Positions 6,981 to 17,458 of a stretch of DNA of 24,682 bases are shown piece by piece; position 1 is the stretch's first letter; each line of letters starts with the position of its first letter. This DNA comes from a virus. The stretch covers positions 1 through 24,682 of the IMG/VR virus record IMGVR_UViG_3300032282_000397; one strand, 5' to 3'. Position numbers and translations under genes: made by a program. Below the pieces are notes generated by a model that had not been told where the DNA came from, did not search any database, and was given only the letters and a program-made list of their open reading frames with translations.

Positions 6981-7000
6981 TGTAATTCTAGGAGGCTCAA

Positions 7001-7663
7001 ATGGAAATTGTTAAAGTTGCTGTTGAAGAATTACACCCGTACCCAAATAATCCGCGCAAGGGTAATATCAGTCTCATCGCGGAATCGTTAAGTAATTACG
7101 GACAATATAAACCGATTACTGTCAATAAGCGCAATAACCAAATCCTCGCTGGTAATCACACTTTCCAAGCCGCAAAACATCTTGGTTGGTCGGACATCGC
7201 AATTACTTATGTAGATGTCGATGATGCAACCGCCGCAAAGATTGTGGCGATAGACAACAAGACCAGCGACACGGGCGGTTACGACACCAGCAAGCTTCTA
7301 GAACTCCTAGACGAGTTACCTGACCTTATCGCCACGGGTTACACGGACGACGACATCGATTCATTGAAGGCTTTGATGGACGAAGAAGCGACTCCCGACC
7401 TCGGTAGCAATATGCACGCGGCACCTAAAGTTGGTGAAACAGGACTCAGTAATGTGAATATCGGCACATCTCTAGCCGAATACGCAGAACGCTACGCGCA
7501 GAAGACCACCAGAATGCTGATGATGGATTACGAAAACACGCTTTATATTTGGCTTGTTGATAAACTTAGCGAATACCGAGCCGCCAATAACATTGTCAGT
7601 AACGCTGATGCCATAGTCAGTCTTGTGGAAAATGTATCAGGCGAGAAAGCACCCAGAGAATGA
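7001..7663 (+). CDS. ParB-like N-terminal domain protein
   Basis: A 220-residue protein whose first 100 residues are a ParB/Sulfiredoxin-fold nuclease-like domain: ELHPYPNNPRKGN, IAESLSNYGQYKPITVN, ILAGNHTFQAAKHLGW, and DVDDATAAKIVAIDN. The GNHT block replaces the G-E-R-R motif of chromosomal ParB, as in many phage ParB-like proteins. The second half is acidic and helical and has no HTH I can see, so centromere binding is unlikely. GGAGG lies six bases before the start. The stop overlaps the dioxygenase start as ATGA, making it the first gene of the modification operon. Phage ParB-like domains have been linked to DNA-modifying enzymes and nucleases; its exact activity here is unknown. Confidence 0.85.
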   Translation: MEIVKVAVEELHPYPNNPRKGNISLIAESLSNYGQYKPITVNKRNNQILAGNHTFQAAKHLGWSDIAITYVDVDDATAAKIVAIDNKTSDTGGYDTSKLLELLDELPDLIATGYTDDDIDSLKALMDEEATPDLGSNMHAAPKVGETGLSNVNIGTSLAEYAERYAQKTTRMLMMDYENTLYIWLVDKLSEYRAANNIVSNADAIVSLVENVSGEKAPRE

Positions 7664-8532
7664 ACCTAGCAGAATTACCTATCATCAAAGTCAATCGCGT
7701 AATGTCCGAAGATGACGCTAGCGCGCTGGTCGGAACAATGGTTGATGAAAAAGAAGCTAATTGCACCGAGGCTGGTATTTATGTAGATGCCGAAACCGAA
7801 GAAATTATTTTTGTTTATTTCCCAATGGAAGAAGAAGTAAATCTGCTCCGGCGCTCAGTTCTCAACATCAAGTACGGTTCGACCAAACGGCAATCTTTAG
7901 GCATTGAAAACTCCTCACGCACTTTCGGAATGGCACCACGCAAGGTTTATCAACGCAGAGAATCTTGCCGCCCAACAACTTTGGCTCATGAGCAGCCCAA
8001 CGAACACGCAGTCTTGATTGCTTTCGCAGAGAAGTTTGCCGCCATGTTCAAAGAGTTCGCTCCTGAGATTTACGAGCGCGATGTAAAAGCACTAGCCGAT
8101 GCAGGATTAGATGACGAATGGCGAATGACGGACGACGCCCTATGGACTAGCGGCGTAGTCAATAAATCATCAACTTTGCCTTACCACCGCGATGGGTTTA
8201 ATTTTGCCACTTGGAGCGCGATGCCCGTAATTCGTAGAGATATGCGCGGCGGTTATCTGCACCTACCAGAATACGACTTCACCTGTTCTTGCCGCGATGG
8301 CTGGGTAACTTTCTTTGCTGGGTACAAATATGTCCATGGCGTAACACCTATGACGCCAATGAAGGAAGATGCCTACCGCTACTCGGTGGTTTATTACGCA
8401 TTACGCGGCATGAAAGATTGCTTCACTTACGCAGTCGAAACTGCCAAGGGTGCCGAGAACCGCACCAAGCGAGAAGAACAAATGGTGGCAGTCCTCAAAG
8501 GAGATACGGAACTACAGGTCGGAAAGAAGTAA
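7660..8532 (+). CDS. TET/JBP-like 2-oxoglutarate-Fe(II) dioxygenase
   Basis: A 290-residue 2OG-Fe(II) dioxygenase. The iron ligands are H176-x-D178 (PYHRDGFN) and H226 (HGVTP), and R240 (AYRYS) would bind 2-oxoglutarate. Between them lie GGYLHLPEY and CRDGWVTFFAG. The order HxD, GGxLxxPE, DGxxxxF, HGVTP, RxSxVYY is the pattern of the phage TET/JBP family, which oxidises 5-methylcytosine or thymine in DNA to the hydroxymethyl base. The N-terminal 120 residues are less conserved, with a basic patch that may bind DNA. It overlaps parB (ATGA) and is followed after one base by a glycosyltransferase. No C5-methyltransferase gene is in the window, so the substrate could be thymine, host-made 5mC, or 5mC from a gene elsewhere. 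A general 2OG oxygenase is the alternative. Confidence 0.82.
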   Translation: MNLAELPIIKVNRVMSEDDASALVGTMVDEKEANCTEAGIYVDAETEEIIFVYFPMEEEVNLLRRSVLNIKYGSTKRQSLGIENSSRTFGMAPRKVYQRRESCRPTTLAHEQPNEHAVLIAFAEKFAAMFKEFAPEIYERDVKALADAGLDDEWRMTDDALWTSGVVNKSSTLPYHRDGFNFATWSAMPVIRRDMRGGYLHLPEYDFTCSCRDGWVTFFAGYKYVHGVTPMTPMKEDAYRYSVVYYALRGMKDCFTYAVETAKGAENRTKREEQMVAVLKGDTELQVGKK

Positions 8533-8533
8533 C

Positions 8534-9460
8534 ATGATAATTGGATATAGGCGTGTATCCGGAAGATTGCCTCTGACTACCGATGAAAAAGGCGCTCGCG
8601 GCACTTGGCTCGAAAAGCGATTAGCACTTATCGCAAGCTTGGAGCGGCGCGGTCATTTGTTCCGTTACCTCAGCGCTCCTACCATCAACAGCGAGGCGGT
8701 AGGTTACAAAAAGGAACCTTTGGGAACTTGCGATGTATTATTCCTAGAGTTCGGCGGCGCGAATCTATTGTTCAACCGCAAAGCATGGGACGAGACCTTT
8801 GCCATAATCCAAGAGCATAAAGGTCGCATTATCTTTTTATGTGACGACCCTGACCTGCCTTTCCTCTGGAAAGAATTGCCAGACGAAGATTGGTCGCGCT
8901 GGACTTGCGCCGTCAATGCGTCACAGATTGAGCCGACCCGACTCAAGTTAAGTATTCCGATTCAGGCTCAGATTGTAGATACACCATTCCACGCTTTGTT
9001 AGAACAGCAAGAATTCCACGATGGGGATAAGCCCACAGCCATCTACTTTGGACGCCCCAACGGACGCATGAAGTCGATTACGCCCTATCTACAAAGCGGC
9101 ATGGTAACTATCGCTGGCAAAGCCGACGAATGGAAAGACGATTCCTTAAAACTGGTTACGCCACCAGAACAGAAGGAACGCTCAGGCTGGTATAAACAAT
9201 GGCGCGCTTGCTTCGCCATGTACGACGCTAAGCACGCAATTACAGGTTGGCGCACAGGCAGGGCATATCACGCTTTACTGGCAGGAATTCCGGTAGCCGC
9301 ACCCTATGGCAACCCTGCGTTGGATTGGACATGGAAAACCGACAGCCCAAGAGATTTAGCCGAACTCCTGAAGTTAGATGCCGACAAAAGAAAAGCAATC
9401 CACGAACAACAGGTGCAAGCTTGTGCGGTAAAGTTTCCGTTTGAGGCGTTAGGACTTTGA
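8534..9460 (+). CDS. GT-B-like glycosyltransferase, probable base-modifying
   Basis: A 308-residue protein that reads as a GT-B glycosyltransferase. The N-terminal half has a Rossmann-like start (KRLALIASLERRGHLFRYL), then CDVLFLEFGGAN and IIFLCDDPDLPF. The C-terminal half has AIYFGRPNGRMKSI, then TGWRTGRAYHALLAGIPVAA followed by YGNPALDW, which matches the nucleotide-sugar-binding end of GT-B enzymes. Start ATG 8534 is one base after the dioxygenase stop, with GGAAAGAAG upstream; an in-frame upstream extension would lie inside the dioxygenase gene. Directly behind a TET/JBP gene the natural role is to glycosylate the hydroxymethyl base, as in known phage systems. Cell-wall or virion glycosylation is the alternative. 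Similarity to named GT families was not tested. Confidence 0.65.
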   Translation: MIIGYRRVSGRLPLTTDEKGARGTWLEKRLALIASLERRGHLFRYLSAPTINSEAVGYKKEPLGTCDVLFLEFGGANLLFNRKAWDETFAIIQEHKGRIIFLCDDPDLPFLWKELPDEDWSRWTCAVNASQIEPTRLKLSIPIQAQIVDTPFHALLEQQEFHDGDKPTAIYFGRPNGRMKSITPYLQSGMVTIAGKADEWKDDSLKLVTPPEQKERSGWYKQWRACFAMYDAKHAITGWRTGRAYHALLAGIPVAAPYGNPALDWTWKTDSPRDLAELLKLDADKRKAIHEQQVQACAVKFPFEALGL

Positions 9461-9903
9461 TAGGTTTTGACATAGACGGCGTATTAGCCGAAAAGCCACC
9501 AGCATCAGATAAAGCATGGGGCAAGATGAACGGGACAGAGCGTAAAGCGCGCAAACAATTCCTGCTCCAATGGTACAGAGACGCTGAGCCGCTTTACCCA
9601 ACCATAAACGAACCCTTTGTAGCCATTAGCGCCAGAAAAGATGAAGTTGAAATTAGAGCGATTACTGTCGGTTGGCTCAATCACCATTACCCACAGGTAC
9701 AAGAACTCGTACTGCTACCGATGAGCAGGTCTATTGAGAATGTGGTTCGATTTAAGAGCGCGGCGTTAGTAAACTATCAGATTACGGACTTTACCGAGGA
9801 CAACAAGAAGGTACTCAAAGGGATAGCGGCTCACGAATTAGATTGCCGCCTTTGGTTTTGGGAAAAGGGAATGCCTGAGCGAGTTGCGTATAATTTGATT
9901 TGA
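9457..9903 (+). CDS. HAD-superfamily phosphatase
   Basis: A 148-residue HAD hydrolase. Motif I is DIDG (D5, D7), motif II has S58 in AISARK, motif III is K100 in RFKSAAL, and motif IV is TDFTEDN (D111, D115). The layout and small size match nucleotidase or sugar-phosphate phosphatase type HADs with a minimal cap. It begins at TTG 9457 overlapping the glycosyltransferase stop (TTGA), so it is very likely co-expressed. Possible roles are removal of a phosphate from a nucleotide or sugar precursor of the modified base, or DNA-end phosphatase repair. The cassette context favours the first; the sequence alone cannot decide. Confidence 0.75.
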   Translation: MIGFDIDGVLAEKPPASDKAWGKMNGTERKARKQFLLQWYRDAEPLYPTINEPFVAISARKDEVEIRAITVGWLNHHYPQVQELVLLPMSRSIENVVRFKSAALVNYQITDFTEDNKKVLKGIAAHELDCRLWFWEKGMPERVAYNLI

Positions 9904-9917
9904 GATAAATTAAGCGT

Positions 9918-10406
9918 ATGACAGGAAAAATCGCAGACGCTGACGCTAAGCAATTAGCAAAGCAGGAAAAGGCTGAAAAGATTATTGAGTTGCGCAGGAC
10001 AGGGGCGACTTGGGAACTTATCGCTAAAGCAACAGGTTACGCCAACCCTTCCGGCGCTTACAAGGCTTACCAAAAGATTCTAGAGAGCATGGTGTTTCCC
10101 AAGCTTGAAGAATACCGACACATGGAACTTGACCTTTATGACAGGTTGCAGTTAAGTGTTTATGAACGCGCCAAGAATGGCGATATGCGCGCTATTGAAA
10201 CTATCTTGAAGATAAGCGATAGACGCAGAAGCATTATCGGCTTAGACGCACCAAGCAAAATTCAAGCGGAGGTAATTACTTATGACGGCGCAATCCTTGA
10301 ACAGCATACCGCCCGAATCGTTGAAATGGTACGACTCTCTCGGGAGCCGCAGGGCGACATGGGCAGCGGAACTGGCGAGACCAGAGCAATTACCGACGGA
10401 GACTGA
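9918..10406 (+). CDS. terS: Small terminase subunit-like protein
   Basis: A 162-residue protein with an N-terminal HTH (IIELRRTGATWELIAKATGY, about residues 22-41), the KAYQKILE region, a central helical oligomerisation segment (YRHMELDLYDRLQLSVYERA) and GDMRAIETILKISDRRRSIIGLDAP. The last block is typical of actinophage small terminases and related HTH proteins. Small terminase recognises the packaging site and regulates the large subunit. It overlaps the large terminase gene by 125 bases, a strong sign of a pair. The upstream ribosome site is weak. The C-terminal 25 residues are encoded in the overlap and are probably disordered. Confidence 0.75.
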   Translation: MTGKIADADAKQLAKQEKAEKIIELRRTGATWELIAKATGYANPSGAYKAYQKILESMVFPKLEEYRHMELDLYDRLQLSVYERAKNGDMRAIETILKISDRRRSIIGLDAPSKIQAEVITYDGAILEQHTARIVEMVRLSREPQGDMGSGTGETRAITDGD

Positions 10407-11656: not shown

Positions 11657-12004
11657 ATGATAGCGTCAGGCTACGACACAATAATTGACCAAGGCGCTGA
11701 TTGGTATATCAATTTTGTTTGTCAAGACCCAGACGATGCACCAATCAATCTAACAGGTTCTACTGCGGCTTTACAGTTGCGTTCGCTCCCCGATGACCCT
11801 ACTGCGGTATTAACTTTAACAACAGAGAACAATGGAATCGCAATTACTGGCGTCGATGGTTTAATCGCTGTTCACGCAACATCTACGCAAACTAACGCAA
11901 TCATTACTGGTATTTATTATTATGATTTAGAAGTAACCATTTCAGGTACAATAACTAGAATTATCCAAGGACAAGTAACTGTATCGGCACAGGTGACACG
12001 ATGA
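11657..12004 (+). CDS. Small Ig-like/BppU-N-like virion or fibre-base protein
   Basis: One hundred fifteen residues, almost all beta: DQGADWYINF, then LTGSTAALQLRS, ending GIYYYDLEVTIS and [15 protein letters not shown]. The pattern 'D.G.D...........NLTG.TA.LQLR ... Y.YDL ... G.V.VS..VT' resembles the N-terminal domain of baseplate upper proteins and short structural proteins in front of tail fibres. TGAGG precedes ATG 11657. The stop overlaps the collagen-like fibre start as ATGA (12001-12004), so it is probably the fibre attachment or adaptor protein. That adaptor role is inference. Confidence 0.6.
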   Translation: MIASGYDTIIDQGADWYINFVCQDPDDAPINLTGSTAALQLRSLPDDPTAVLTLTTENNGIAITGVDGLIAVHATSTQTNAIITGIYYYDLEVTISGTITRIIQGQVTVSAQVTR

Positions 12005-15000
12005 CTCCAACTCCAAACACAGGCATCACTACAGTCGTAGTTCAGTTTCCGGGTCCACAAGGACAGCAAGGTGCGCAAGGCGTTCAAGGTCTTTCAGGTG
12101 GAGCAGTTGCACAAGGCGTACAAGGTCCACAAGGTATTCAAGGTGGTGGCTTTAATCAAGCACAAGGCACACAAGGCGTCCAAGGAACAACAGGCACACA
12201 AGGTTTAGATGGAAGCGCCGGAGCGCAAGGCACAATCGGTGGACAAGGTGTTCAAGGTCTAGATGGCATTCAAGGATTCACCGGAACACAAGGTGTTGAT
12301 GGTGCACAAGGATTAGAAGGCGCGCAAGGCTTAATCGGCGTACAAGGTGTTCAAGGATTTGAAGGAACACAAGGTTTTACAGGTATTCAGGGAACTGATG
12401 GTTCACAAGGCACAGAAGGTGCGCAAGGATTAGCTGGCGTACAAGGCTTTGATGGTGTGCAAGGTTTTGATGGTGCGCAAGGTACCGATGGTGCGCAAGG
12501 ACTGCAAGGTTTAGACGGAGCGCAAGGATTTGATGGCGCGCAAGGTTTAATTGGTATTCAAGGAACAGATGGCGCACAAGGCATCGAAGGAATGCAAGGC
12601 ACAACAGGTGCGCAAGGACTCACAGGCATTCAAGGTGACCAAGGTGCGCAGGGTGTTGAAGGCGCACAAGGTTTAGAAGGAACACAAGGAATTGTCGGTA
12701 TTCAGGGAGACCAAGGCGCACAAGGCGTAGAAGGCGCGCAGGGTCAAACAGGCACACAAGGTTTAATCGGTATCCAAGGCGAAATTGGTTTACAAGGCGT
12801 TCAAGGCTTAGACGGAATCCAAGGCACAGACGGATTACAAGGGATAATCGGCGCACAAGGCTTTGATGGTGTTCAGGGATTTGACGGAACGCAAGGAATT
12901 GAAGGCGCGCAGGGAACACAAGGCATTCAGGGAAGCTTGGGAATCCAAGGTTTTGATGGAGCACAAGGTTTCGACGGAACACAGGGATTAACGGGCGCAC
13001 AAGGTACCGACGGCACACAAGGATTAGAGGGTGCGCAAGGTACACAGGGCGTACAAGGTCACGATGGTATTCAAGGCATCGAAGGTATGCAAGGTACCGA
13101 AGGTCGTCAAGGAACTGTTGGCGCACAAGGTTTCGAAGGTATCCAAGGTGTTGAAGGCTTACAGGGATTAGAAGGAACACAGGGTACACAAGGTATTCAA
13201 AGCGCTATCGGCGCACAAGGAACCGAGGGTATCCAAGGATTAACAGGCGCACAAGGTTTCAACGGAATCCAAGGTGTTACAGGTTCACAGGGCATTGAAG
13301 GCATCCAAGGAACCGATGGAGCGCAAGGAACACAAGGTGTCCAAGGTGCAATTGGTAGCCAAGGCATCCAAGGCTTAGATGGCACCCAAGGTGTACAAGG
13401 TATTACTGGTGCGAGCGGTACATCATCATCTATTTTTGATTATGTAGCGCAAACTACTTCACAGACACCACCGCCTAATAGTGGTGACATTCAATGGAAT
13501 AACGCCACACAAATTTCTGCAACAAACATTTATGTATCTCATTTAACAGATGCAAGTGTGGACATTGATTTTCTATTAGCAAACATTAAAAATGGTGACA
13601 TCTTCTTTATTCAAGATAGAAACGACTCTGCTAACTATCAAGAGTGGCAAGTGAATGGCACACCTTCATCTGTTACTAATAGTTACTTTACTTTCCCTGT
13701 TGCATTGCTTGATTCAAGCGGAACAGGTACAACAAACTTTGCAAACAACCACAACATTTCTCTTATTACGCAGAGCGTCGGTGTGCAAGGAACAACTGGT
13801 GCACAAGGAACTATTGGCGCTCAGGGAACAACAGGTTTGCAGGGCATTCAGGGGACTGAAGGTACACAAGGCACAACTGGAACTCAAGGATTAGTCGGCG
13901 CGCAGGGTCAGACAGGTTCGCAAGGCATCGAGGGAATCCAAGGTGTTGAAGGTGCACAGGGAACAGAAGGCATTCAAGGCGTAACTGGCAGTCAAGGAAC
14001 AACTGGAACTCAGGGAGCAATCGGCTCACAGGGATTACAGGGAGTCCAAGGTCAGAACGGAACTCAGGGCATAACAGGTGCGCAGGGCGCAGAGGGTATG
14101 CAAGGCATTGAAGGTGCACAAGGTCATGAGGGAACTCAGGGTACCGATGGCATTCAAGGCATCACAGGCGCACAGGGAACACGCGGTATTCAGGGAATTA
14201 TTGGAAGCCAAGGTACAGAAGGATTACAAGGAACTCAGGGAACAGAAGGTGCGCAGGGAACTGCTGGTGAAAATGGTTCTCAGGGTACAACTGGCGCACA
14301 AGGTATTGAAGGTTTACAAGGTGTGCAGGGAAGCTTGGGAACACAAGGCGCAACAGGTTCACAAGGAACTGTTGGCGCTCAGGGGATACAAGGTTCAACA
14401 GGTAGCCAAGGTGCAATCGGCACACAAGGTGCACAGGGAATCCAAGGCACAACTGGTATTCAAGGTGATTTTGGTTCTCAGGGTGCAACTGGTACAACAG
14501 GTGCACAAGGTATTCAAGGAACAACTGGTATCCAAGGTGATGTTGGTGCGCAAGGTACAACTGGTAATACAGGTACACAAGGCACAACTGGTATCCAAGG
14601 CAATCAGGGAACAACTGGAACACAAGGATTAACTGGTAGCCAAGGAACGACTGGTACACAGGGTGCGAACGGCACACAAGGTTTAACTGGTTCACAGGGA
14701 ACCGACGGACTTAACGGCGCTCAGGGTACGACAGGTACACAAGGCACCAGCGGAACCAATGGTGCACAAGGTACAACTGGAACTCAGGGTACAAACGGAA
14801 CCAACGGCAACAACGGCTCACAGGGAACCACGGGTCAGCAAGGAACAACTGGTTCACAAGGCACAACTGGACTACAAGGATTAACTGGAACGCAGGGTAC
14901 AAATGGTACAACTGGTTCTCAGGGAACTACTGGTTCTTTGCCTACGCTTTCATTTAACGCACAAACAACTGCTTACACACTTGTCGCAGGAGATGTGAAC

Positions 15001-15249
15001 AAATGGGTGACTATGAACGCGGCTACTTCACAAGCAATCACTATCCCAGCGAGCGTGTTCAGCGTTGGACAAGTAATTTATGTACAGCGTTTGGGTGCAG
15101 GAGCGGTGCCAATTACACAAGGAGCAAGCACAACTGTTACTTCTAACGGCGCTACTTCATCGGCACCTAATATGCGTGCGGCTTATAGTGCCGCGTCAAT
15201 TATCTGTACAGGTACAAACACCTTTACAGTCGTAGGAGATATTACTTAA
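12001..15249 (+). CDS. Collagen-like fibre protein (1082 aa)
   Basis: A very long structural fibre. After a 17-residue N-terminus (possible anchor) come two collagen-like GXY triple-helix regions: about residues 18-473 and 594-979. The triplets alternate, with Q very often in the Y position (GxQGxxG). A non-repetitive domain of about 120 residues (474-593) separates them. The C-terminal ~103 residues ([16 protein letters not shown], then a beta-rich part ending [11 protein letters not shown]) resemble the terminal trimerising or receptor-binding domain of other phage fibres. One Gly-to-Ser change at residue 401 interrupts the triplets, and an insertion near the start ([15 protein letters not shown]) does too. 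Position between terminase and portal is unusual for a tail fibre. A head decoration is an alternative. Confidence 0.85.
12052..13419 (+). repeat. First collagen-like GXY repeat tract
   Basis: About 456 residues of GXY triplets with an 18-base hexapeptide-pair period (GxQGxxG), near-identical at the protein level but varied at the third codon position. It contains short breaks near 12097-12170 and one Gly-to-Ser codon at 13201-13203. Tandem coding repeats of this kind change length by replication slippage. Confidence 0.85.
13780..14937 (+). repeat. Second collagen-like GXY repeat tract
   Basis: About 386 residues of GXY triplets with the same GxQGxxG logic, shifting toward Thr-rich triplets (GTQGTTG) in the last third. 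It directly precedes the C-terminal domain at 14938. The two tracts may have arisen by duplication around the central domain. Confidence 0.85.
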
Positions 15250-15920
15250 CGAACCCAAAGCATGCCGACATCAGCAGTTGGACGCAGACTAGCTTCTCGC
15301 CAACCGCCATCTATCCATGCATCTGATGTGAGTTGATGCCAACCTAATAACTGATTGGTGTTATTTGCTTGCAGGTTACCCCATTCTTGCGGTTCTTCTA
15401 AATGATTGACGATGTATTGCGCCGCCATCTCTCGGTAACCCAATGTAAATAAATAATCCAACTGGTCTTCGTGTTGATGGATAGTTTCAAATGTCCATTC
15501 AAAGCACAGCGTACCGCCGTAGTGACGCGTCATGCCTTTTATCACTTGCCATTCAGCGCCTTCTACATCTATCTTAATTAAATCGGGGTCGCCGTAGCGT
15601 TCTGCAAGCTTGTCGATTGTTGTCGTATTGGCTTTGATAGTCCTAAAAGGCTTTCCGGCATAAGGCATGGAATCTTTGGTCAACCATTCCTTGTTCAGCG
15701 TAGATAAGCCATCCTCGTCTGCCTCGTAGAACTCTAAACGCTCTCCGTGTGAATTTGAAACTGCATATCGCAGCGGTACCACATTGAGATTGTAAATAAA
15801 GTTATTGACTAACTGTGCATAGACTTTTGGAGCCGCCTCTACCGCGATTACTTTGTAACCTTTATTCAATCCAGCCAGCGTTGCGTCACCTCGGTTAGCA
15901 CCTATATCAAATAGCAACAT
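15246..15920 (-). CDS. FkbM-family SAM-dependent methyltransferase
   Basis: A 224-residue Rossmann methyltransferase. SAM motif I is FDIGANRGDAT (residues 4-14), followed by VEAAP, and the FkbM motif IKIDVEGAEWQVIKG near residue 115. FkbM enzymes mostly O-methylate sugars or related polyols. The gene is on the minus strand; its stop TTA (15246-15248) overlaps the fibre stop TAA on the other strand by two bases, so the two converge. ATG at 15920 has GGA-type Shine-Dalgarno and overlaps the TPR-like gene by 14 bases. Likely substrate is a glycan, perhaps on the fibre, virion or host wall (inference). Confidence 0.85.
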   Translation of the reverse strand: MLLFDIGANRGDATLAGLNKGYKVIAVEAAPKVYAQLVNNFIYNLNVVPLRYAVSNSHGERLEFYEADEDGLSTLNKEWLTKDSMPYAGKPFRTIKANTTTIDKLAERYGDPDLIKIDVEGAEWQVIKGMTRHYGGTLCFEWTFETIHQHEDQLDYLFTLGYREMAAQYIVNHLEEPQEWGNLQANNTNQLLGWHQLTSDAWIDGGWREASLRPTADVGMLWVR

Positions 15921-16470
15921 TGCCTATCCTTTCCAGATTATTACGAACAGCGAGCGCGTATTCCGGCGCTAAATCCATAGCGAATAACTTAGTCAGCAAT
16001 TCGCGGCTCTCCTCTGGTCTGCCAAGCCACCATGCGCTAACGGCTTTTTCGAACTGCAAACAATATTCGCCGTGATAACCCACATCTATTGGCAACGCAG
16101 GGCAATGGCTTTGTGCAAGACCGATGCGCGCCCATGTGTAAGCTTCCTGCCATTGGCTATTGCGTTCACAGAACTGCGCGAGCAAGAAATAACCTTCTGG
16201 GCGATAAGGCAAATACGCAACTGCTTGTAATAAACAGTTAGTCACGGTTGCCACGCGGTCATTCTGGTCGTCGAAGCAATGGGCTACCTTCAGTAACGAT
16301 GTATAAACGAGCGATGGGTGCGTAATTTCGCCGTATTCTGCGGTGCGCAAATAGAAGGAAACAGCCGAAGCAGTTTGGTTTTGCTTCTCGTATTCAACTG
16401 CTACCGCGAAATTAAGGTCTGGATTGAACGGGTCATGCGATAATTCGACTACCAATTCCTCAATTTTCAT
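15907..16470 (-). CDS. TPR-like helical repeat protein
   Basis: A 187-residue helical-repeat protein. Repeats of about 34 residues can be read: LNFAVAVEYEKQNQTASAVS (first), SLVYTSLLKVAHCFDD, then EGYFLLAQFCERNSQWQEAY and AVSAWWLGRPEESRELLTKL. These match the TPR consensus (A, G/W, L, Y, F, A). The start was set at ATG 16470, with GGAGG nine bases before it; TTG 16476 would give two more residues but is only three bases from that site. Such proteins in phages often sit next to glycosyltransferases as scaffolds. It lies between two glycan-type genes and overlaps both. Confidence 0.7.
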   Translation of the reverse strand: MKIEELVVELSHDPFNPDLNFAVAVEYEKQNQTASAVSFYLRTAEYGEITHPSLVYTSLLKVAHCFDDQNDRVATVTNCLLQAVAYLPYRPEGYFLLAQFCERNSQWQEAYTWARIGLAQSHCPALPIDVGYHGEYCLQFEKAVSAWWLGRPEESRELLTKLFAMDLAPEYALAVRNNLERIGNVAI

Positions 16471-17458
16471 AAGCAAGAGCCTCCATAATCATGTCTTCTA
16501 CGACTAATTGCGGTACGCGTAATACGAAAGCGGCGTTATCTTGAAAGCCAAAACTCAACAATAAGTCGTCTTGGTACCTAGCCGCGCCTACACAGAACTC
16601 TATTCGGGCGTCTAGGAATGTGAACTCTTTAGAGATACCAATAAGGTTCAACTCTTTATCCCAAAGAACTAAGCGATGGCGATAGATAGCATCTTTTTGC
16701 TTCAGGTAATTCTTGAACAAATCGACTTCGTGCGTAATCGAAATATACATATTGCCCCAAGGTATAACCTGAGAACTGCCTCGCTGGTCTTTCGGTGCTG
16801 GTGCTGTTTGCTTTACAAATACTTGTTCGGTTTTGCCGCTAGGTTCGGCATACACCAATTCTGTCGGCATAGTCCATTTCACAAAGTGATACGGCTTGTC
16901 TATTACCGGAACCCAATTCTTCTCGCAATAAGAATCGTCAGGCGCAGGGGCAGGAATACGAACACGGGATATTTCCTTGATTGTCCAAGCTTGTTTGTCG
17001 ATGGCTAATTCGCTGTATTCCATGCGTCCTACACCATTGGTCGTCGTATCGCGGCGCACACCAACCGCATAATACTTGCCGTGCCATTGCATAAGGCGAC
17101 AATCTTCTTCCCCCACAAACTCCCAAATCGGTTCAACATCTAATTCTGATGTATCTACCTTGGCGTAATCGGTCATTTCTAAATCTTGATTAAGCCGACA
17201 GATGTAATTCGTTGTAACTAATCGGCGGTCTTTTTCTGGGTGCAGATAAGACAAAGGTCCCCAACGGCTAGGGAAGCGTTGATTGTTTTCTGCGTGGTAT
17301 AGCGTGTAATTAACATGGCGCAGATTGACGAGGATATCACCATCGTCGTCTATAAATATTGACGGATTCATAAGCCCTGTGCCTGAAGTTAGCCCATGCG
17401 AAATAACTATTGGCGCTAATTTGCCGCCGTGCGAAACTGCCTTCTCAACTAAGTTCAT
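16460..17458 (-). CDS. GH130-like five-bladed beta-propeller glycosidase/phosphorylase
   Basis: A 332-residue protein rich in beta strands. Features resembling GH130/GH43-like propellers include MNPSIFIDDDGDILVNLRHV near the start (residues 30-49), PIWEFVGEEDCRLMQWHGKY, CEKNWVPVIDKPYHFVKW and later RGSSQVIPWGNMYISITHEV, then HRLVLWDKELNLIGIS and FCVGAARYQDDLLLSFGFQD. These spaced W/D/E motifs recall families that hydrolyse or phosphorolyse mannosides or other glycosides. Similarity was judged by eye; catalytic residues cannot be fixed. It starts at ATG 17458 and faces the portal gene across a 78-base gap. It is the first gene of the leftward operon. Confidence 0.6.
   Translation of the reverse strand: MNLVEKAVSHGGKLAPIVISHGLTSGTGLMNPSIFIDDDGDILVNLRHVNYTLYHAENNQRFPSRWGPLSYLHPEKDRRLVTTNYICRLNQDLEMTDYAKVDTSELDVEPIWEFVGEEDCRLMQWHGKYYAVGVRRDTTTNGVGRMEYSELAIDKQAWTIKEISRVRIPAPAPDDSYCEKNWVPVIDKPYHFVKWTMPTELVYAEPSGKTEQVFVKQTAPAPKDQRGSSQVIPWGNMYISITHEVDLFKNYLKQKDAIYRHRLVLWDKELNLIGISKEFTFLDARIEFCVGAARYQDDLLLSFGFQDNAAFVLRVPQLVVEDMIMEALAYEN

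Follow-up and report, generated by a model that had tools for sequence, protein, structure and literature searches.

Analysis of a 24,682 bp viral DNA, the complete IMG/VR record IMGVR_UViG_3300032282_000397 (hereafter the window, likely a fragment of a genome), revealed a cassette of four genes encoding a ParB-like protein, a TET/JBP dioxygenase, a glycosyltransferase (GT) whose predicted fold resembles that of the DNA beta-glucosyltransferase of phage T4 (BGT), and a HAD-superfamily phosphatase. We propose, with somewhat more confidence than doubt, that these genes form a two-step, post-replicative DNA decoration unit converting thymine to 5-hydroxymethyluracil (5hmU) and then to glycosyl-5hmU. 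In the first step the dioxygenase, aided by its ParB-like partner, would hydroxylate the 5-methyl group of thymine in phage DNA; in the second, the GT would transfer a sugar from a nucleotide-sugar, probably linked to uridine diphosphate (UDP), onto the hydroxymethyl group, with D105 as the putative catalytic base. The HAD protein may serve the sugar step by removing a phosphate, and the resulting base-J-like glycosyl-5hmU may keep host nucleases from attacking the DNA, as modified bases of this kind usually do. The features of the region are as follows.

6991..6996, + strand: Shine-Dalgarno-like AGGAGG, 5' of the ParB-like gene (read in the sequence)
7001..7663, + strand: ParB/Srx-fold protein, 220 aa (PF02195, phrog_723)
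7660..8532, + strand: TET/JBP Fe(II)/2-oxoglutarate dioxygenase, 290 aa; proposed thymine (5-methyl) hydroxylase on DNA (PF12851)
8534..9460, + strand: GT-B glycosyltransferase, 308 aa, T4-BGT-like fold; proposed DNA glycosyltransferase on the hydroxymethylated base (AlphaFold2/Foldseek, profile alignment)
8846..8848, + strand: codon of GT D105, proposed catalytic base (aligned with T4 BGT D100)
9457..9903, + strand: HAD-superfamily phosphatase, 148 aa, constant partner of the GT (motifs, AlphaFold2, linkage)
9918..10406, + strand: small terminase-like gene, closing the exchangeable slot described below and outside the modification unit (gene-order conservation)

The preliminary description of this stretch had treated the four genes as a single translational unit. 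Their coordinates and junctions hold: the ParB-like and dioxygenase genes overlap by ATGA, the dioxygenase and GT genes are separated by a one-base gap, the GT and HAD genes overlap by TTGA, and the terminase-like gene lies directly 3' of the cassette. The four do not constitute a fixed set, since ParB is tied to TET in this lineage, while GT and HAD are exchanged together as a separate pair. The broader proposal of DNA hypermodification by a TET/JBP enzyme and a glycosyltransferase is well supported, and the resemblance of the GT to T4 BGT makes it stronger than could be known from the letters at that stage.

The second gene is, judged by its motifs, a TET/JBP dioxygenase. Its product matches Pfam Tet_JBP (PF12851) with an E-value of 8.8e-9 and 35.2 bits, passing the curated cut-off of 34.9, and the residues initially picked out in TET/JBP order, H176-x-D178, H226 and R240, which correspond to the HxD...H iron triad and the 2-oxoglutarate-binding arginine, are invariant in 39 relatives. 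A profile of the family also matches the structures of NgTet1, the Naegleria TET (5cg8/4lt5), at a modest E-value of 0.002-0.003 over 57 C-terminal residues; NgTet1 is not the top row of that search, being preceded by a de novo repeat protein whose score came from four weak, repeated matches, none of them significant alone. Relatives of the window TET occur in 90 phage records, the cultured ones being mostly actinophages, and many of these records label the protein 'queuine tRNA-ribosyltransferase', 'oxidoreductase' or hypothetical. The first of these names is shared by PHROG 6059 and RefSeq (for example Mycobacterium phage gene 2, NC_042034.1, 785-1753); given the Tet_JBP score and the preserved dioxygenase active site, it looks like a propagated misannotation.

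An AlphaFold2 model of the GT, built from an alignment of nine relatives (pLDDT 90, pTM 0.88), confirms the initial guess of a GT-B-like enzyme and assigns it a T4-BGT-like fold. When this model was compared with 350,542 PDB chains using Foldseek, T4 BGT occupied ranks 1, 2 and 4 (1j39/1c3j/1bgt; E-values of 1e-8 to 1e-7, TM 0.70-0.72), and the wall-sugar GTs Gtf3, GtfC and PimA ranked behind it. When profiles of 15 GTs and 6 BGTs were compared, GT residues 30-299 aligned with BGT residues 24-333 in a full-length, co-linear manner, pairing D105 with D100, R174 with R191, R178 with R195, and R243 with R269. D105 is invariant in the GT alignment; its BGT counterpart D100 is the catalytic base of that enzyme, and the BGT arginines hold the UDP phosphates. 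The alignment score of 26.7 exceeded those of all 200 column-shuffled controls (mean 15.7, maximum 25.9) and of the reversed profile (13.2). A single BGT sequence gave a local match to the GT profile, around D100/D105, which became full-length after homologues were added. The profile E-value is marginal (0.009 for one comparison), and the case therefore rests on fold, co-linearity and catalytic positions together.

By sequence, the GT has no family match in Pfam, PHROG or NCBIfam, no relatives in annotated phages (tblastn) and no PDB match with its profile, while PF20691, the TET-associated glycosyltransferase (TAGT) family, gave no match up to an E-value of 1. Hence, it is better described as an enzyme that probably works like BGT than as a BGT. 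Both GT-B and HAD proteins belong to large, promiscuous superfamilies, and the presence of wall-sugar GTs after BGT in the Foldseek list would also suit a GT and HAD acting on the cell surface, the virion or a small molecule, and lying near TET by chance. We consider this very unlikely, as BGT ranks first, no relatives of the GT were confirmed among 84,980 cellular genomes, and linkage to TET recurs in two unrelated phage lineages.

The fourth gene encodes, on its motifs, a small phosphatase of the HAD type, as first proposed, and its active site is complete: D5xD7, S58, K100 and E114-D115 do not vary among 11 relatives. Its AlphaFold2 model has a pLDDT of 95.5, a PDB sequence search with its profile gave no match, and the fold search returned weak matches to generic HADs (best E-value 0.002), the T4 polynucleotide kinase phosphatase among them. 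As the fold search indicated no specific family, no substrate is claimed; as a first guess, the faint similarity to the polynucleotide kinase phosphatase suggests a nucleic-acid or nucleotide phosphate. The gene starts with TTG, where most relatives have ATG at the same overlap, a feature which might be seen as a sign of decaying genes with no functional role in DNA modification. This explanation is hardly credible, with all four frames intact and active-site residues invariant down to about 45% identity.

The constant pairing of GT and HAD could also mean that thymine is oxidized as proposed, and that the two proteins then build something other than a simple glycoside, for example a sugar-phosphate on 5hmU that is trimmed by HAD. 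A precedent for phosphate-linked sugars exists in the DNA of phage SP-15, whose thymine derivatives carry glucosyl and phosphoglucuronolactone residues (PMC5977210). However, BGT-type GT-B enzymes with a conserved base and arginines make simple glycosides, and the unit possesses neither a nucleotidyltransferase nor a kinase, so that we regard this variant as unlikely.

Across 80 related loci, the order of genes is ParB, TET, a variable slot and the terminase. The slot may contain ADDT (PF18724, E-value 2.9e-19) and a P-loop kinase of the 5-hydroxymethyldeoxyuridine (5hmdU) kinase type (PF18751, 3.4e-23), in some loci joined by an FAD oxidoreductase; ADDT with a PLP-like protein (by eye, no Pfam match) and the kinase; the PF18751 kinase alone; a TAGT-like GT-A protein that matches PF20691 below the cut-off; a different protein, judged GT-B-like by eye and without a Pfam match; or nothing. 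The GT+HAD pair fills it in 13 loci, and HAD accompanies this sugar module alone. When placed on the TET tree, the module labels require 13 changes, and five TETs that are 79-93% identical and form one fully supported clade have five different contents between them: kinase, GT-B-like, TAGT-like, ADDT set and GT+HAD. Neither the PF18751 kinase nor the PF18724 ADDT occurs in the window or in any GT+HAD record tested, so that one module takes the place of another. GT+HAD is an exchangeable module separate from ParB-TET, and would be one of several that decorate the same oxidized base.

A search with the GT profile revealed a second lineage, in which the GT+HAD pair is carried by T4-like phages. 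Their TET has 432 aa, is 25% identical to that of the window and matches PF12851 with an E-value of 4.7e-24; no ParB is found next to it. Of 80 loci with this TET, the majority possess ADDT (2e-20), the PF18751 kinase, GNAT and amidotransferase genes; in others there is GT+HAD, TAGT (1.8e-19), or a cytidylyltransferase together with a GT-B-like protein. In both lineages, TET lies upstream of the GT in every locus whose sequence reaches far enough, and HAD lies downstream of the GT wherever the sequence reaches, except in locus L139, where a transporter-like gene intervenes before the record ends. Loci found via TET are biased toward TET linkage; searches from GT and HAD alone gave the same result.

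Two further features of the T4-like loci were observed. The transporter-like membrane protein (SulP-like by eye) follows the GT in both L184 (4567-5679) and L139 (5142-6197), and in L184 it sits between GT and HAD. In addition, extended ADDT modules occur in loci L116-L183, with genes for a glutamine amidotransferase, an amidoligase-like protein and GNAT, which suggests amino-acid-based thymidine hypermodifications in freshwater T4-like phages.

These exchanges bear on the identity of the target base. The 5hmdU DNA kinase and the transferases that act after it are enzymes of thymidine hypermodification (PMC6449724), and phage Tonitrus, with ParB, TET, aGPT-Pplase2 and kinase genes, is considered a likely thymidine hypermodification system (PMC11955845); these Tonitrus genes match the layout of the window lineage. 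As TETs nearly identical to that of the window adjoin the kinase and ADDT, the same base is likely the substrate in the window. Furthermore, such systems need 5hmU in DNA and no other enzyme was seen to supply it, leaving TET as its only visible source: a thymidylate-synthase-type protein (PF00303) was found in none of 45 relatives and none of 10 T4-like records, and ThyX (PF02511) in neither the window, the window-lineage records nor the two complete actinophages tested. The base oxidized by the window TET is, on this genomic evidence, most likely thymine, and the product most likely a base-J-like glycosyl-5hmU. T4 BGT itself can glucosylate 5hmU, with weak activity on single strands and higher activity on a mispair with G (PMC4111573), so the chemistry proposed for the GT is within reach. 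The preliminary description had left the base open; it is not fully so, as swapping with thymidine hypermodification enzymes points to thymine. TAGT swapping was rejected as evidence for thymine, since cytosine is the base on which the PF20691 enzymes of T-even phages act.

Several observations weigh against thymine or against a BGT-like mechanism. The position of BGT E272 is occupied in the GTs by an invariant histidine, His246. The GT fold does not specify thymine, given that T4 BGT acts on 5-hydroxymethylcytosine (5hmC) and TAGT-type GTs on cytosine. The T4-like GT+HAD phage has ThyX, making a nucleotide-level route to 5hmU possible there. The longest sister record with the same GT+HAD (G005/L011, 38.7 kb) carries a PF00145 C5-methyltransferase on the same strand, about 11 kb upstream of the cassette; this enzyme may provide orphan protection or may supply 5-methylcytosine (5mC). 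Finally, the window is a 24.7 kb fragment, and a C5-methyltransferase may lie outside it.

The alternative that these points raise is a cytosine pathway, in which TET oxidizes 5mC made by the phage or its host to 5hmC, which the BGT-like GT then glycosylates. It draws on the sister enzyme, on the 5hmC activity of T4 BGT as the nearest fold, and on precedent, as a phage TET is reported to act after a C5-methyltransferase (Burke et al., PNAS, 2021). On the other hand, the window contains no C5-methyltransferase, as the preliminary description had stated, and none was found in 39 of 45 relatives, in any of 10 T4-like records of up to 168 kb (the two with GT+HAD measure 126.8 and 159.7 kb), or in two complete phages, Tonitrus and the mycobacteriophage ChrisnMich, whose ParB and TET have no decorator beside them. 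With near-identical TETs adjoining 5hmdU kinase and ADDT enzymes, we judge the cytosine pathway possible but doubtful. In two further records (L043/L044; G022, G023), C5-methyltransferase matches fall in two neighbouring frames, as if the gene were split or interrupted.

The first gene is ParB-like, as the preliminary description had it (PF02195, ParB_N, E-value 1.6e-6; phrog_723, 1.7e-47). ParB is found beside or near TET in the window-lineage loci covering that stretch, and the position of ParB-TET upstream of the terminase is kept across the 80 related loci, a conservation far beyond chance. In this lineage ParB belongs to TET and not to the sugar step; it is a constant partner of TET, perhaps with a role in DNA loading, targeting or nicking.

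The window belongs to a freshwater virus of bacteria. It includes virion genes (terminase, portal-like and capsid-like) and a WhiB-type regulator (1901-2311; PF02467, E-value 1.1e-12), pointing to an actinobacterial host; to our knowledge, the WhiB family is restricted to actinobacteria and their phages. No tRNA or Rfam feature was found in the window. Just after the terminase region lies a gene for a collagen-like protein of 1082 aa (12001-15249; PF01391, 1.8e-124) with many Gly-x-Gln-Gly repeats. Among the structural genes, three genes on the minus strand (15246-17458) encode an FkbM methyltransferase (PF05050), a TPR protein and a 332-aa protein without a Pfam match, and look like sugar or surface-modification cargo.

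Taken more broadly, phages may make base-J-like glycosylated 5hmU via a TET/JBP hydroxylase and a BGT-like GT with a constant HAD partner, the hydroxylase being a hub for exchangeable chemistries (sugar, amino acid, amine) in at least two unrelated lineages; we see the chances of this general scheme as evenly balanced. If true, it would provide a testable substrate, thymine, for an uncharacterized branch of phage TET/JBP enzymes, give base J a counterpart among viruses of bacteria, and reveal a natural slot for swapping modules, where a single oxidized base serves several chemistries. A fresh look for 5hmU could be taken at the 90 phage records that contain a relative of this TET. On duplex DNA, T4 BGT requires a mispair with G to glucosylate 5hmU (PMC4111573); given this limit, a GT active on 5hmU in an ordinary A-paired duplex would be a useful enzyme.

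Compared with known systems, 'undescribed system', as the cassette was first called, is too strong, as TET/JBP-linked GTs and ParB+TET thymidine hypermodification operons have already been described or predicted. Predictions of TET-linked hypermodification and of TET-associated GTs date from 2013. According to a passage in a 2014 paper, it was predicted in that year that phage TET-associated GTs may glycosylate 5hmU produced by JBP-like enzymes (PMC4111573). The thymidine hypermodification systems of M6, ViI, phiW-14 and Rhodococcus phage Tonitrus employ a 5hmdU DNA kinase and aGPT-Pplase/ADDT. The window resembles Tonitrus in gene position, in ParB and TET (TET 49% identical) and in the presumed 5hmU intermediate. 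Unlike in those systems, GT and HAD replace the kinase and ADDT, and 5hmU would be made by TET in DNA instead of by a deoxyuridine monophosphate hydroxymethylase. The base J pathway of kinetoplastids (JBP1/JBP2 and JGT) shares the proposed oxidation of thymine in DNA followed by glycosylation of the hydroxymethyl group, and differs in organism and purpose. One paper describes viruses as lacking base J (PMC4111573), and another states that glucosylated 5hmdU had not been reported in phages as of 2019 (PMC6449724). SP-15 has a glucosylated thymine derivative, though one different from the proposed glycosyl-5hmU.

T4 BGT shares fold, size, the catalytic aspartate and three arginine positions with the window GT, from which it differs in having about 12% identity, no family-level match and E272 where the GT has histidine; moreover, T4 has no TET and makes its hydroxymethylcytosine at the nucleotide level. 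In sister loci, TAGT fills this slot behind the same TET, whereas the window GT has no PF20691 match and a BGT-like GT-B fold. Phage systems combining TET, a C5-methyltransferase and a GT, reportedly the subject of Burke et al. in 2021, have in common with the window the action of TET and GT on phage DNA, proposed here; unlike them, the window and most of its relatives are without a C5-methyltransferase. We found no description of a BGT-like GT accompanied by such a HAD protein. New are this GT family and its partner, the fact that they are linked independently to TETs of two distant kinds, and the swapping of modules as an argument for thymine.

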